Source: Blastococcus sp. TML/M2B
GTDB taxonomy: Bacteria > Actinomycetota > Actinomycetes > Mycobacteriales > Geodermatophilaceae
Length of the DNA: 64,000 nucleotides
Assembly (NCBI RefSeq): GCF_016612865.1
Contig: NZ_JAENZZ010000001.1
Span: 124,001-188,000 of the forward strand
Direction of reading: 5' to 3'
The translations under genes were made by a program, and so were the position numbers. The notes under the pieces are model-generated. The model had not been told where the DNA came from and ran no database searches. It was given only the letters and a program-made list of their open reading frames with translations. Shown piece after piece: positions 15,997-64,000 of this stretch (the stretch's first letter is position 1; each line of letters starts with the position of its first letter).

Positions 15997-18900
15997 ATGG
16001 CGACGGTGAAGACGTGGCTCGACAGCTGGCCGGTGTACCGGCAGCTCACCGGCGCGGACCCGTTCGGGCGCGGCGCGGCCGCGCGCAGCAAGGCGACCGA
16101 CGCGACGGTGTCGCGGACCGCCACCGCGGACCGGGTGGTGAAGACCGTCTGCCCGTTCTGCGCCGTCGGCTGCGCGCAGAACGTGTACGTCAAGGACGAG
16201 CAGATCGTCCAGATCGAGGGCGACCCGGATTCGCCGATCAACCGCGGCCGGCTCTGCCCCAAGGGCAGCGCCACCAAGCAGCTGGTGACGAGCCCGACCC
16301 GCGTGACCACCGTGAGGTACCGCCGTCCCTACGGGACGGAGTGGGAGGACCTCGACCTCGACACGGCGATGGAGATGATCGCCGACCGCGTGCTGGCCGC
16401 CCGCGAGAAGGGCTGGCAGGTCGAGGACGGCGGCAAGCGCGTCAACCGCACCATGGGGATAGCGAGCCTCGGAGGGGCGACCCTCGACAACGAGGAGAAC
16501 TACCTCATGAAGAAGCTCTACAGCGCCATGGGCGCGATCCAGATCGAGAACCAGGCCCGGATATAGCACTCCTCCACGGTGCCCGGTCTGGGTGCCTCGT
16601 TCGGCCGTGGTGGCGCGACCAACTACCTGGAAGACCTCGCGAACTCCGACTGCATCGTCATCGAGGGTTCGAACATGGCCGAGTGCCACCCGGTGGGCTT
16701 CCAGTGGGTCAGCGAGGCGAAGGCGCGCGGCGCCAAGATCGTGCACATCGACCCGCGGTTCACCCGGACCAGCGCGATCGCCGACCTGCACGTGCCGCTG
16801 CGCATGGGCACCGACATCGCGTTCCTCGGCGGGCTGATCAAGTACGTCCTGGACAACGAGCTGTACTTCAAGGACTACGTGGTCGCCTACACCAACGCCG
16901 CGGCGCTGGTGAGCGAGGACTTCGTCGACACCGAGGACTTCGACGGCCTGTTCTCCGGGTTCGACCCGGAGAAGAGCCAGTACGACGAGACCTCGTGGTC
17001 CTACGACCCGGGTGAGCAGGACTCCGCCACCGAGCACCCGGGCGAGGCGGCCTCGCAGGAGGACGAGGAGGACTCCCCGGAGGTCCAGGCGAGCGACCGC
17101 GGGCAGACCCACGGCAGCGGCGGCCCCACGATCCCGAGCAAGCCGCACCGCGACGAGACGCTGCAGCACCCGCGCACGGTGTTCCAGGTGCTCAAGCGGC
17201 ACTTCGCCCGCTACACCCCGGAGATGGTGTCCGAGGTGTGCGGCATCGAGCCCGAGGTGTTCGAGCAGGTCGCGCAGTGGGTGACGGCGAACAGCAACCG
17301 CGACCGGACGACGGCTTGGGTGTACTCCGTGGGCTGGACGCAGCACAGCGTGGGCGCGCAGTACATCCGCACCTGCTCGATCCTGCAGCTGCTCCTGGGC
17401 AACATCGGCCGCCCCGGTGGCGGGATCATGGCGCTGCGCGGGCACGCCAGCATCCAGGGCTCCACCGACGTCCCCACGTTGTTCAACCTGCTGCCCGGCT
17501 ACCTGCCGATGCCGCACGCCGCCCAGCACAGCTCGCTGGAGGAGTACGTCGCCGACGCCGCCGGCAAGGCCGGGTTCTGGGGCAACAAGCGCGCGTACAT
17601 GACCAGCCTGCTCAAGGCCTGGTGGGGCGACGCGGCGACGGCGGAGAACGACTTCGCGTTCGACTACATCCCGAAGATCAACGGCGACCACAGCTCCTAC
17701 CGGACGATCGCCGACATGATCGAGGGGAAGGTCTCGGGCTACTTCCTGGTCGGGGAGAACCCCAGCGTCGGGCACCCCAACGGCCGGATGAACCGGTTCG
17801 GCCTGGCCAACCTGGACTGGCTCGTCGTCCGGGACCTGCAGATGATCGAGTCGGCCACCTTCTGGCAGCAGGGCCCCGAGCACGAGACCGGCGAGCTGGC
17901 GCCGGAGACGATCGGCACCGAGGTCTTCTTCATGCCGGCGGCCACGCACGTGGAGAAGGAAGGCACCTTCACCCAGACCCAGCGGGTGCTGCAGTGGCGG
18001 CACAAGGCGGTCGAGCCGCCGAACGACGCCCGCAGCGACCTGTGGTTCTACTACCACCTGGGCCGGATCCTGCGGGAGCGGCTGAAGGACTCGACCGACC
18101 CGCGCGACCGGCCGCTGCTCGACCTCACCTGGGACTACCCGGTGCACGGCGAGACCCAGGACCCGGACGCCGCCGCGGTGCTGCGCGAGATCAACGGCGT
18201 CGGCCCCGACGGCCGGGCGCTGTCGTCCTACCTGGAGATGAAGGACGACGGCTCGACCAGCGGCGGCTGCTGGATCTACTGCGGCGTCTACGCCGACGAG
18301 GTCAACCAGGCCGCCCGCCGGAAGCCGGCCAAGGAGATGGGCGTGGCCGGCTCCGAGTGGGGCTGGGCGTGGCCGCTGAACCGCCGGATGCTCTACAACC
18401 GCGCCTCGGCCGACCCCGAGGGCAGGCCGTGGAGCGAGCGCAAGGCCTACGTCTGGTGGGACGAGGAGGCCGGCGAGTGGACCGGCAAGGACGTCCCGGA
18501 CTTCGAGAAGACCAAGCGCCCGGACTACGTGCCCCCGGAGGGGGCCAGGGCGCAGGACGCGCTGGCCGGGACGGACCCGTTCGTCATGCAGGGCGACGGC
18601 AAGGGGTGGCTGTACGCGCCCGCCGGGCTGGTCGACGGCCCGCTGCCGACGCACTACGAGCCGGTGGAGTCCGTCGTCGAGAACGCGCTGTACTCGATCC
18701 AGGCGAACCCGACGGTCGAGCGGATCCCGGGGCCGTGGAACCGGGAGAACCCCTCGCGCAGCGAGGTCTTCCCGTTCCAGGTGACCACCTACCGGCTCAC
18801 CGAGCACCACACGGCCGGCGGGATGAGCCGCACGCTGCCCTACCTGTCCGAGCTCCAGCCGGAGTTCTTCGTCGAGGTCAGCCCGGAGCTGGCGCGGCTG

Positions 18901-19293
18901 CGCGGGCTGAGCAACGGCGAGTACGCGACGCTGGTCAGCTCCCGGACGGCGATCGAGGCGAAGGTGCTGGTCACCGAGCGGATGCGGCCGATCCGGCTGC
19001 GCGGCGGCCAGGTGGTGCACCAGATCGGCATGCCGTACCACTGGTCCTACGCGGGCATCTCCACCGGCGACTCCGCGAACGACCTGCTGGGCATCGCGCT
19101 GGACTCGAACACCCACATCCAGGAGGACAAGGTCAGCACCGCCGACATCGTCCCCGGACGGCGCCCGCGCGGGCCGGAGCTGCTCGAGTTCGTCGAGTCC
19201 TACCGCCGCCGGGCCGGGGTCGAGTCCGGCCGGGTCGGGGTCAACGGCCGCGACCCGGTGGACGCCGACGCGGGCGAGGGGTCCCGGCTCTGA
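15997..19293 (+). CDS. fdhA: formate dehydrogenase catalytic subunit, selenoprotein with Sec encoded by in-frame UAG
   Basis: The large molybdenum or tungsten bis-MGD subunit that oxidises formate to CO2. Read through the TAG at 16564-16566 it is 1098 residues, with Sec at position 190. The N-terminal iron-sulfur motif is CPFCAVGC with LCPKG. Around the TAG the sequence is ENQARI-Sec-HSSTVPGLGASFGRG, aligning with E. coli FdnG NQARV-U-HGPTVA, including the His after Sec. Downstream it continues as an ordinary FDH-N-type enzyme to a C-terminal molybdopterin-binding domain. An acidic low-complexity insertion lies at about residues 343-370. No Tat signal is visible, so it may face the cytoplasm, unlike E. 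coli FdnG. A SECIS-like hairpin follows the TAG; fdhB and an NrfD gene follow. Confidence 0.92.
16564..16610 (+). promoter_or_regulatory. UAG selenocysteine codon with bacterial SECIS-like hairpin
   Basis: The TAG at 16564-16566 is followed by a stem of GGUGCCC (16578-16584) and GGGUGCC (16590-16596) around the loop GGUCU. A GGU in the apical loop and a U in the 5' arm are the features SelB recognises in E. coli fdhF. The loop GGU starts exactly 18 bases after the stop codon, the same spacing as in E. coli fdhF. CCACG at 16574-16578 and CGTGG at 16606-16610 offer an alternative or lower stem. The first base pairs and the loop are seen directly; SelB binding is inferred. Confidence 0.85.
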
Positions 19294-19318: not shown

Positions 19319-20389
19319 ATGACCTCGATCAGCTCCGTGAGCGCGGCCTTCACCGGCCGCGACCGCGGCAACCGGCTCTACGGCCCGGTGCCCGACGTGA
19401 CCGAGCAGTCGGGGTACGCCGAGGAGCACCCCAAGCGGGTCGGCTTCTTCACCGACACCTCGGTGTGCATCGGGTGCAAGGCGTGCGAGGTGGCCTGCAA
19501 GGAGTGGAACACCCTCCCGATGGACGACTCGCACGGCGTGAAGGACGCGCTGGGCCTGTCCGGGATGTCCTACGACAACACCGGGCAGCTGGGCGCCAAC
19601 TCCTGGCGGCACGTGGCGTTCATCGAGCAGAGCCGCGCGGTCGACCTGCCGATGCCGACGTTCGGGCGGCCGGGCGACGACCGGCACGACCACGGCACCT
19701 CGGTGGCGGGCAGCGGCGACCTGAACTCGACGGCGACGGCGCAGGCCAGCGTGCTCAACGCCGAGGCGCTCACCGAGTTCGACCCGCAGACCGGGCAGAC
19801 CGGTGCGGACAAGCAGGTGCGGTGGCTGATGAGCTCCGACGTCTGCAAGCACTGCACGCACGCCGGCTGCCTCGACGTCTGCCCGACCGGAGCGCTGTTC
19901 CGCACCGAGTTCGGCACCGTCGTCGTCCAGGGCGACATCTGCAACGGCTGCGGCTACTGCGTCGCCGCCTGCCCCTACGGCGTCATCGACCAGCGCAAGG
20001 ACGACGGCCGGGTCTTCAAGTGCACGATGTGCTACGACCGGCTGACCGACGGGCTGATGCCCGCGTGCGCCACGGCGTGCCCCACCCAGTCGATCCAGTT
20101 CGGCGACCTCGACGAGCTCCAGGAGCGCGCCGACGCGCGGCTGGCCACGCTGAAGGCGCAGGGCGTGGAGACGGCGCGGCTGTACGGGCGGGACGAGGAC
20201 GACGGCGTCGGTGGTGACGGCGCGTTCTTCCTGCTGCTCGACGAGCCGGAGGTCTACGGCCTGCCGCCGGACCCGATCGTGACCACCCGCGACCTGCCGG
20301 CGATGTGGCGGGCGGCGGGCAAGGCCGCGCTGATGATGGTGGGGGTCGCCGCGACGGCGATCCTGGGCTCGCGGCGGGGCGCCCGGTGA
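19319..20389 (+). CDS. fdhB: formate dehydrogenase iron-sulfur (beta) subunit
   Basis: A 356-residue ferredoxin-like electron-transfer subunit with four cysteine clusters: CIGCKACEVAC, CKHCTHAGCLDVC, CNGCGYCVAACPYG and CTMCYDR with CATACP, enough for four [4Fe-4S] centres as in FdnH. A hydrophobic segment near the C-terminus (about residues 328-350) could anchor it in the membrane. It would carry electrons from FdhA to the NrfD subunit. A nine-codon minicistron (ATG 19293, stop 19320-19322) overlaps both the fdhA stop and this ATG, and GAAGGG inside it is the likely ribosome binding site. Confidence 0.92.
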   Translation: MTSISSVSAAFTGRDRGNRLYGPVPDVTEQSGYAEEHPKRVGFFTDTSVCIGCKACEVACKEWNTLPMDDSHGVKDALGLSGMSYDNTGQLGANSWRHVAFIEQSRAVDLPMPTFGRPGDDRHDHGTSVAGSGDLNSTATAQASVLNAEALTEFDPQTGQTGADKQVRWLMSSDVCKHCTHAGCLDVCPTGALFRTEFGTVVVQGDICNGCGYCVAACPYGVIDQRKDDGRVFKCTMCYDRLTDGLMPACATACPTQSIQFGDLDELQERADARLATLKAQGVETARLYGRDEDDGVGGDGAFFLLLDEPEVYGLPPDPIVTTRDLPAMWRAAGKAALMMVGVAATAILGSRRGAR

Positions 20390-21426
20390 CCGGCGGCATC
20401 ACCAGCCCGGGGGCCGGGTGGCGGCAGGCGGACCGGGGCCCGGCGACGCAGCGGACCGGCAGGAAGCGGCGCAGGCGCGGCGGGGGGCGCGGGCGCGGCG
20501 AGGTCCCGATGGTCGACGACGTCGAGTTCACCTCGTACTACGGCCGGCAGATCGTCAAGACGCCGGTGTGGAAGAGCCCCGACGTGCCGCTGTACCTGTT
20601 CCTGGGCGGGGCGGCCGGCTCGTCGGCAATCCTCGGCGCGCTCGCCGACGTCACCGGCCGGCAGGCGCTGACCCGCACCGCGCGGCTCACCGCCGGTGGC
20701 GGCTCGATCCTGTCGGTGGTCTTCCTCATCCACGACCTGGGGCGGCCGGAGCGGTTCCTCCACATGCTGCGGGTGCTCAAGGTGACCTCGCCGCTGTCGG
20801 TCGGCACCTACATCCTGGCGCCGTTCAGCGCGGCGGCCGGGGCGACGGCGGCGGTGGAGCTGCTGGGCTGGTTCCCGCGGCTCAAGCGCTTCGGTGGGGC
20901 GGTGGCCGGGGTGTTCGGCGGGCCGCTGGCCACGTACACCGGCGTGCTGCTGGCCAACACCGCGGTGCCGTCGTGGCACGAGTTCCACACCAAGCTGCCG
21001 TTCGTGTTCGGCGGCTCGGCGATGGCGGCCGGCGGCGGCATCTGCATGGCCCTGACACCGCTGGGCGAGTCGGAGCCGGCGCGGAAGATGGCGATCCTCG
21101 GCGCCGGCATCGAGCTGGCCGCGCTGCGCGGTATCGAGGGCAGCGACAGCTTCCTGGCCGAGCCGTACCACGAGGGCCGGCCGGGCCAGTTCATGCGCGC
21201 GGCCCGGGCGTGCACCGCCGGTGGCCTCGGGCTGGCCGTGCTCGGCGGGCGCCGACGGTGGGGGGCGGTTGCTTCAGGTGCGCTGTTGGCGGCGGGTTCG
21301 CTGCTCACCCGGTTCGGCGTCTTCGAGGCCGGGATCGCCAGCACCAAGGATCCGAAGTATGTCGTCGTCCCGCAGCGGGAGCGGATGGCGGCCCGGGAGG
21401 CCGAGGCCCGCTCCGTCGCCCGCTGA
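20386..21426 (+). CDS. NrfD/PsrC-type membrane subunit of formate dehydrogenase
   Basis: A 346-residue integral membrane protein of the NrfD/polysulfide-reductase PsrC family, which passes electrons between the iron-sulfur subunit and menaquinone. The start GTG 20386 overlaps the fdhB stop (GTGA). An Arg-rich N-terminal extension of about 40 residues precedes the DVEFTSYYGRQIVKTPVWK segment and about eight membrane helices, with IHDLGRPERFLHMLRV matching the conserved family loop. This replaces the cytochrome b gamma subunit (FdnI) of E. coli. A decayed partial copy of this gene lies at 26922-27341. Confidence 0.88.
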   Translation: MTGGITSPGAGWRQADRGPATQRTGRKRRRRGGGRGRGEVPMVDDVEFTSYYGRQIVKTPVWKSPDVPLYLFLGGAAGSSAILGALADVTGRQALTRTARLTAGGGSILSVVFLIHDLGRPERFLHMLRVLKVTSPLSVGTYILAPFSAAAGATAAVELLGWFPRLKRFGGAVAGVFGGPLATYTGVLLANTAVPSWHEFHTKLPFVFGGSAMAAGGGICMALTPLGESEPARKMAILGAGIELAALRGIEGSDSFLAEPYHEGRPGQFMRAARACTAGGLGLAVLGGRRRWGAVASGALLAAGSLLTRFGVFEAGIASTKDPKYVVVPQRERMAAREAEARSVAR

Positions 21427-62989: not shown

Positions 62990-64000
62990 GACGCCGCCCG
63001 CCGTCGGTTCAGCTCGGCCAGGCACACGGCGAAGACCGCCGTGGCGAGCAGCCCCGAGGCGCCGAGGACGGCCACGTCGCGGAGCGCCTCGCCGTCGTCC
63101 TGGCTGAGCAGCCGGCCGCCGGCGAGCACGGGCAGCATGGGCACCGCGGCGAGCACGACCGCCGCGAGGCCGCGGGCGTCGACCGCCGCCGCCGGACGCA
63201 CGAGGCGCCGCACGCGCGCGATCACCGTGGCGGCGGCCCCGGTGTCGGCGATCAGCACGGTCAGGGCCAGACCGAGCAGCCGGGGCGGCCCGGCGGGGAG
63301 GGTGAGCGCGGCACCGGCGCACACCGCGGTGAGCGCGAACGCCACGCACCCGGCGAGCTGCGGACCCCGGACGTCGAGGGAGGCGTACAGGGCCTGCCGC
63401 CCGATCTCGTGCATCCCGGCGGCCAGCTGGGCGACGGCGAGGACGGCGATGCAGGCCGCCAGCGCGCCGATGAGCGCGTTGTCCCACAGGTCGCCGGCGG
63501 CCAGCGTGCCCGCGACCGGGCGGGCGAACGCGACCAGGACGAGCAGCGCCGGCAGGCCGGCGACCACGCCGTACCGGATCGCCTGCCGCCAGGACGCGGC
63601 GTACCCGGACCGGTCACCGGCCGTGGCGGCGGCGGACATCCCGGGCATCACCGCGGTCGTGACCGCCCGGGCGCCCAGGGCCAGCGGCACCGCGTAGACG
63701 GCGAAGGCCATCTGGAACACCAGCGCGCCGCCCGGCATGCTCGCCGCGCAGACCACCAGGAGGAAGAAGGCCCCGGCCGGCAGCGCCGCGACGAGCACGG
63801 AGCCGCGCAGCCGCACGAGGACGGCCCGGATCTCGGGGTCCTCGCGCCAGCCCCGGGCCGGCCGCAGGGAGAGGCCGACCCGGTGGGCGCCGATCACCTG
63901 GAGGCCGGCGTGGGCGGCCACGGCGAGCGTGGCACCGGTGCCCATCAGCAGCACGACCCCGGAGGGGACGTCCCCGACCTCCGCCCCGCGCTGGTGGAGC
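62986..64000 (-). CDS. polysaccharide flippase (MOP superfamily), 5' end outside the window
   Basis: At least 338 residues are visible and the frame is open to the window end. It has about nine hydrophobic helices, with AVYAVPLALGARAVTTAVMPGMSAA and AGMHEIGRQALYASLDVRGPQ typical of Wzx or MurJ-like flippases. It would flip the lipid-linked repeat unit of cluster II. Its stop overlaps the start of the ligase gene. Without the N-terminus the subfamily cannot be fixed. Confidence 0.75.
   Translation of the reverse strand, partial: LHQRGAEVGDVPSGVVLLMGTGATLAVAAHAGLQVIGAHRVGLSLRPARGWREDPEIRAVLVRLRGSVLVAALPAGAFFLLVVCAASMPGGALVFQMAFAVYAVPLALGARAVTTAVMPGMSAAATAGDRSGYAASWRQAIRYGVVAGLPALLVLVAFARPVAGTLAAGDLWDNALIGALAACIAVLAVAQLAAGMHEIGRQALYASLDVRGPQLAGCVAFALTAVCAGAALTLPAGPPRLLGLALTVLIADTGAAATVIARVRRLVRPAAAVDARGLAAVVLAAVPMLPVLAGGRLLSQDDGEALRDVAVLGASGLLATAVFAVCLAELNRRRAAS

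Follow-up and report, generated by a model that had tools for sequence, protein, structure and literature searches.

The window, a 64,000-nucleotide stretch of the genome of Blastococcus sp. TML/M2B, carries a formate dehydrogenase locus in which the alpha subunit gene is interrupted by an in-frame TAG codon, with a putative hairpin lying directly after this codon and two further genes following on the same strand:

15997..19293, plus strand: fdhA, formate dehydrogenase alpha subunit, 1098 aa when read through the UAG, with NF041513 and Pfam matches
16564..16566, plus strand: UAG codon at the selenocysteine (Sec) position, residue 190, aligned with 1H0H and 1KQF
16578..16596, plus strand: putative bacterial SECIS hairpin, stem 16578-16584/16590-16596, apical loop GGUCU at 16585-16589, supported by covariation
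19319..20389, plus strand: fdhB, 4Fe-4S beta subunit, TIGR01582 at 179 bits (under the cut-off of 334.7), Pfam Fer4_11 and other matches
20305..21426, plus strand: NrfD-type membrane subunit, Pfam NrfD at 36 bits (cut-off 25.8)

The TAG at 16564-16566 is the sole stop of 15997-19293 ahead of the terminator, with 908 codons open downstream of it, in agreement with an earlier note on this DNA, which had described a frame broken by a single TAG and continuing for that distance. NF041513 matches the read-through protein at 1912.3 bits (cut-off 1400) over residues 7-1072, spanning profile positions 2-1067 of 1067, and Pfam finds Molybdop_Fe4S4, Molybdopterin and Molydop_binding; judged by these profiles, FdhA is a full-length actinobacterial formate dehydrogenase of the FdnG-like type. 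Residue 190 aligns to the X of 1H0H (QARI-X-HSATV) and of 1KQF (QARV-X-HGPTV), which we take to be Sec in both, placing the TAG exactly at the Sec position, as had been claimed. The standard reading splits formate dehydrogenases of this kind in two. Both downstream frames are open, bearing out the description of fdhB and NrfD as intact 3′ of fdhA; the NrfD-type subunit at 20305..21426 had no match in a search of NCBIfam profiles, and its translation probably begins some way inside the ORF that opens at 20305.

Counting the U of the UAG as position 1, positions 15-21 pair with 27-33 around a GGUCU loop at 22-26, with the GGTCT loop of E. coli fdhF found at 22-26 after its TGA, at the identical 18-base offset. 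The earlier description of a GGU-loop hairpin 18 bases after the codon, spaced as in E. coli fdhF, holds for the GGU of the loop and for the spacing, but not for the stem, which begins 11 bases after the codon. Fold energy was tried as evidence for the hairpin and dropped, being no better than that of shuffled sequences (z 0.54), and covariation was used in its place. Across 34 of 37 distinct 36-mers, with TAG and TGA copies pooled and shuffles that leave relatedness in, 97.5% of cells are paired (shuffled mean 88.6, 0/500 as high), and the covariation score is 0.283, compared with 0.120 in the shuffles (0/500 as high) and at most 0.055 in slid controls. Three pairs have changed on both sides, compared with 1.4 in shuffles (9/500), and the pair 18-30 is seen as CG, GU, GC, UG, and UA; the count of further pair types, 7 against 5.6 shuffled (69/500 as high), is not unusual, and the outer pair 15-33 is unpaired in 5 of the 34 sequences and omitted by RNAalifold. 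Furthermore, a chance scan of 104 kb (the window and two 20-kb stretches) for stops with the frame open for 60 codons on both sides and a GT at 23-24 returned 16 qualifying stops, with all 7 pairs present at the fdhA TAG alone; the next best, a TGA at 63011 on the minus strand, has 6/7 pairs and lacks a coding GC pattern. The presence of a SECIS hairpin directly after the fdhA UAG, as predicted from these comparisons, is supported by covariation.

The best match to the tRNA-Sec model in the window's genome scores 69.5 bits (gathering score 47), possesses a long variable arm and the anticodon CUA (CTA), and is flanked by selD on one side and selA-selB on the other. The second match, at 48.2 bits, is tRNA-Ser(UGA), with eight of the nine matches read and the seven other than the best being Ser, Arg, Tyr, Leu, or Met tRNAs; no tRNA-Sec with UCA is present among these eight, the ninth match (30.6 bits) lying outside them, and a single match is obtained at E 1e-9. 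Weak matches to this model occur in all 14 control genomes and carry no meaning. selB is matched by TIGR00475 at 283.8 bits (cut-off 242.25) and selD by TIGR00476 at 389.5 bits (cut-off 125), so that selB, selD, and a tRNA-Sec with CUA, which the earlier note had named as genes to look for, are all three present. According to the accessible part of PMC7609411, the enzymes that work on tRNA-Sec all leave its anticodon arm unbound, and SelB may because of this need nothing special to work at UAG. ARAGORN labels the CUA tRNA-Sec as tRNA-Pyl in 22 of 30 loci, including L001 1501-1596, with the other 8 being UCA and labelled tRNA-SeC, a trap for automatic annotation.

selA, listed alongside these genes in the earlier note, is matched at 367.7 bits, over the cut-off, yet its coding is split over two frames in the assembly (profile positions 2-333 and 373-453), with the break at L009 10433-10519 (G000) and no second selA over the cut-off in this genome. 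A comparison of 36 loci (35 CUA, one UCA), among them 6 unreadable ones and 2 that both represent the out-of-frame gene of the window's genome, gave 28 readable loci from relatives (27 genomes), all 28 in frame across the break stretch; an intact selA therefore exists in relatives. The lone shift of frame may stem from faulty assembly; if it is real, the strain could not make Sec.

Additional support comes from the wider family, Geodermatophilaceae, with tRNA-Sec found in 108 of 112 genomes (E 1e-9 or better). The anticodon, read in all 108, is CUA in 101 (75 + 9 + 17 from three successive readings) and UCA in 7, the latter belonging to three genera, g5, g6, and g7. fdhA is present in 100/112 genomes (E 1e-100 or better), with none in the UCA genera, and the combined pattern of TAG and hairpin in 96/112, with 0 for a reversed-pattern control. 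Aligning this codon among relatives, as had been suggested, gave TAG in all family copies read and TGA in outgroups: 97 of 110 fdhA loci have TAG and 13 have TGA, where the 110 comprise the best 80 of 582 and 30 family loci that largely repeat the same genomes, and the outgroups are the nearest only. The TGA copies, from the best 80 of 582, belong to Pseudonocardiaceae, Nocardioidaceae, and a Frankineae MAG; one of the 110 sites, too short, was omitted from the hairpin readings. Further family loci have TAG in 11/11 covering the site (13 fetched) and in 20/20 more, with no UGA at the Sec site of any family fdhA or UGSC copy read. A second recoded fdhA codon, suggested by extra stops (seven rows with a TGA in addition to the TAG, two with another TAG), was rejected; inside their alignments, the 11 loci covering the site have no other stops than three TGA at residues 1092-1093, which we regard as the terminator, and the extra stops of the remaining rows fell outside the alignments.

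One genome contains a UCA tRNA-Sec additional to the usual CUA one (G058:C17:1173-1263; L015, L257), located next to an ORF resembling a transposase, where the GC content is lower at one end of a 69-kb contig, and this is possibly a stray mobile tRNA or a sign of double UAG/UGA Sec decoding. Among the matches listed, the only CUA tRNA-Sec of another family lies in the draft genome G230 (L227, G230:C194), on a 4.8-kb contig with sel genes falling inside the Geodermatophilaceae CUA clade; the contig is probably misbinned, and the candidate occurrence outside the family was rejected. Two fdhA fragments of G079 (L162, L163) show similarity from residue 204-206, just past the Sec site, with TGA counted in one and TAG in the other, neither located in the alignment, and possibly reflect a contig break or a decayed gene. 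The fdhA of L085 (titled Bacillus sp. AZ43, unverified) lies deep inside Blastococcus, the record probably being mislabelled, and L105, titled Frankiales, has a TAG fdhA inside the family clade.

The window's genome also contains another candidate selenoprotein gene with TAG, of the kind the earlier note had proposed looking for:

G000:C2:322235-322660: UGSC-family gene, TAG at the Sec site, 8-bp hairpin with GT at 23-24

Thirty UGSC loci were read, with 22 having TAG and 8 having TGC at this site. The hairpin has 8/8 pairs in 21 of the 22 TAG loci and 6 in one, whereas at most 5 of 8 positions are paired in the TGC loci. The 95 UGSC matches, from 54/112 genomes, contain one TAG in 72, no stop in 23, and TGA in 0. 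A Sec-type AhpC was considered for the window's genome and rejected, with no stop inside the matched stretch of any of its 6 AhpC-TSA matches, and a partial search for UGA selenoprotein genes, covering these six and the 1 UGSC match, found no TGA. The 4 Molydop_binding matches of this genome do not span a Sec site.

The tree built for SelA, SelB, and SelD covers 30 loci: 14 CUA loci representing G230 and 13 genomes of the family, 6 UCA loci drawn from 4 of its genomes, and 10 outgroups. A single branch separates all 14 CUA rows from the rest (100/100; 200/200 bootstrap trees), with the cautions that six rows have data for less than half of their length, that L279 is very long, and that support is weak (82/68) for the fork at which the UCA and CUA loci of the family join. 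As read from this tree, the sampled sel genes fit one anticodon switch. The tRNA of G070 (g6, UCA) has selD on one side and selA-selB on the other, just as in the window's genome, and the anticodon therefore apparently changed without a move of the gene; contigs of g5 do not extend far enough to show the neighbourhood of their tRNA-Sec. The change from TCA to CTA in the anticodon takes two substitutions, as does that from TGA to TAG in the codon.

The history of the codon was followed in a tree of 99 fdhA rows (the window's own copy, 80 named loci, and 18 further family loci, other family copies being left out) and in a tree and tests of 40 rows, hand-chosen from the 99 and including 10 of the 13 TGA rows. 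The larger tree has TAG copies in three places among the TGA copies, with the window copy grouped with that of B. aggregatus DSM 4725 (SH-aLRT 99). The 40-row tree gives 3 TGA/TAG changes across the 5-95% range of 200 bootstrap trees, with one change in 0%, and its starred branches force 2 codon changes. The AU test on these 40 rows rejects one clade for all TAG copies (p 0.000147) but not a union of the main and second TAG clades (p 0.109), a grouping named after the tree was seen. Judged by these AU tests and the forced branches, two fdhA codon switches are firm and three are likely. The side lineages comprise G038, G057, and G104, and G001, G032, G052, G092, G097, and G098, with a CUA tRNA-Sec in 7 of these 9 genomes and no tRNA-Sec found in G097 and G098; L152 falls with the third lineage in the 99-row tree, which carries a long-branch warning, and outside it in the 40-row tree. 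The fdhA tree is compatible with transfer of the gene and a later change of its codon, and also with ancient paralogues that changed in concert, and we infer the direction, TGA to TAG, from the tRNA tree. A single tRNA thus apparently drew genes with separate lines of inheritance towards its own codon, and we somewhat favour the view that an anticodon switch from UCA to CUA, made once where the main Geodermatophilaceae began, carried at least two fdhA lineages (three in the best tree), along with UGSC, to UAG. If true, this would amount to codon capture in nature, repeated and with one tRNA as its driver, a pattern of one tRNA and several codons for which a literature search, with most subscription papers beyond its reach, found no paper.

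The window's genome encodes both release factors, with a PAT motif presumably marking RF1 and an SPF motif presumably marking RF2, and by an approximate tally from GC pattern across 104 kb, which sets the fdhA stop aside, 7 of 41 reading frames terminate in TAG, that of selD being one of them. Because both factors are encoded and TAG seems to end ordinary genes, UAG likely serves as both stop and Sec, gated by the hairpin. The tRNA-Sec with the CUA anticodon is predicted to read the fdhA UAG as selenocysteine, likely being brought there by SelB docked on the hairpin just 3′ of the codon; UAG elsewhere is probably an ordinary stop, with the hairpin deciding where UAG would mean Sec. Within this scheme, the conversion of Ser to Sec, delivery by SelB, competition with RF1, and the actual incorporation of Sec are steps that we infer. 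We give a probability of roughly 0.92 to this reading, with tRNA-Sec(CUA) delivered by SelB at the hairpin and UAG probably a stop elsewhere. The proposal in the earlier note that this organism uses the UAG-Sec variant is supported by the CUA tRNA, selB, selD, the second TAG gene, and TAG across the family copies.

Other explanations of the interrupted frame have to be weighed against this reading. Were the lineage's machinery lost in this strain, the broken selA would leave the fdhA UAG as a stop, or as Ser carried by unconverted tRNA; the division of selA over two frames and the lack of a second copy over the cut-off speak for such a loss, however selB, selD, the tRNA, fdhA, the UGSC gene, RF1, and RF2 are all in place and uninterrupted, and with selA in frame in 28/28 readable relative loci a fault of the assembly may account for the single frame change, leaving the loss unlikely. 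That fdhA is a pseudogene, or the TAG a sequencing error, is far less probable, despite the premature stop that annotation would read here and the frame-broken selA of the same assembly, as the identical pattern of TAG and hairpin recurs in 96/112 family genomes against 0 in the reversed control, and apart from the TAG, fdhA and both genes after it have uninterrupted frames.

The remaining alternatives concern the residue inserted. tRNA-Sec is first charged with Ser, which would suit a CUA tRNA reading UAG as cysteine or serine to give a Cys- or Ser-type formate dehydrogenase. The accessible part of PMC7609411 also describes a tRNA-Sec-like tRNA-Cys in some species. This reading is nevertheless very unlikely, with selA and selD kept beside the tRNA in relatives and hairpin pairing falling away in the UGSC loci that have TGC. 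Pyrrolysine at the UAG, suggested by the tRNA-Pyl label from ARAGORN, has a negligible chance of being correct, given the score and long variable arm of the tRNA as a tRNA-Sec, its place between selD and selA, the UCA form in the like cluster of G070 of the same family, and a residue corresponding to the Sec of formate dehydrogenases. Reading of the fdhA UAG as Sec by tRNA-Sec(CUA) would make this a live code variant, in which a non-UGA stop is gated to selenocysteine by an RNA hairpin.

Compared with E. coli, the window FdhA has the same Sec position as FdnG, and its gene the same GGUCU loop at 22-26 as fdhF, however fdhF and FdnG use TGA, whilst the window fdhA has TAG with a CUA tRNA, where competition would be expected with RF1. 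The tRNA-Sec of E. coli has the anticodon UCA, and UGA is there subject to competition with RF2. Competition of RF2 at Sec-UGA is described in the accessible part of PMC8124441, which, along with that of PMC10778597, mentions UAG-Sec in general terms. The pyrrolysine system likewise reads UAG by a CUA tRNA, but differs in tRNA type, residue, and gene neighbourhood, with the accessible part of PMC10778597 stating that Pyl reassigns UAG throughout and not at selected codons.

The UAG-Sec code variant, though rare, is itself already known for Geodermatophilaceae, and the mechanism is not new. Mukai et al. (Angew. Chem., 2016) reportedly demonstrated UAG-Sec in Geodermatophilus and Blastococcus by 75Se labelling or mass spectrometry. 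The statement of the earlier note that this variant had been reported with a CUA tRNA-Sec is matched in print for the family by the accessible part of PMC5330540, which describes three Geodermatophilaceae genomes with a CUA tRNA-Sec, Sec-UAG in formate dehydrogenase and UGSC-motif proteins, and an AhpC of B. saxobsidens with Sec-TAG. Neither Geodermatophil nor Blastococcus appears as a term in the accessible part of a 2026 review (PMC13188914). As far as that part of PMC5330540 extends, the published cases and the window's genome are alike in family, CUA tRNA-Sec, Sec-UAG formate dehydrogenase, and UGSC, and B. saxobsidens DD2 has the same code variant in the same genus, with its Sec-UAG AhpC contrasting with 0/6 stop-bearing AhpC-TSA matches here. 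Additionally, the present case concerns another Blastococcus-type genome, with selA broken in its assembly. New here are the anticodon survey over 108 family genomes and the traced codon history of fdhA, which narrow the place of the change within the family: tRNA-Sec(UCA) persists in three genera, and at least one of their genomes has it in a similar gene cluster. Through the difference between one tRNA switch and several codon switches, code evolution becomes testable by comparing neighbouring genera.
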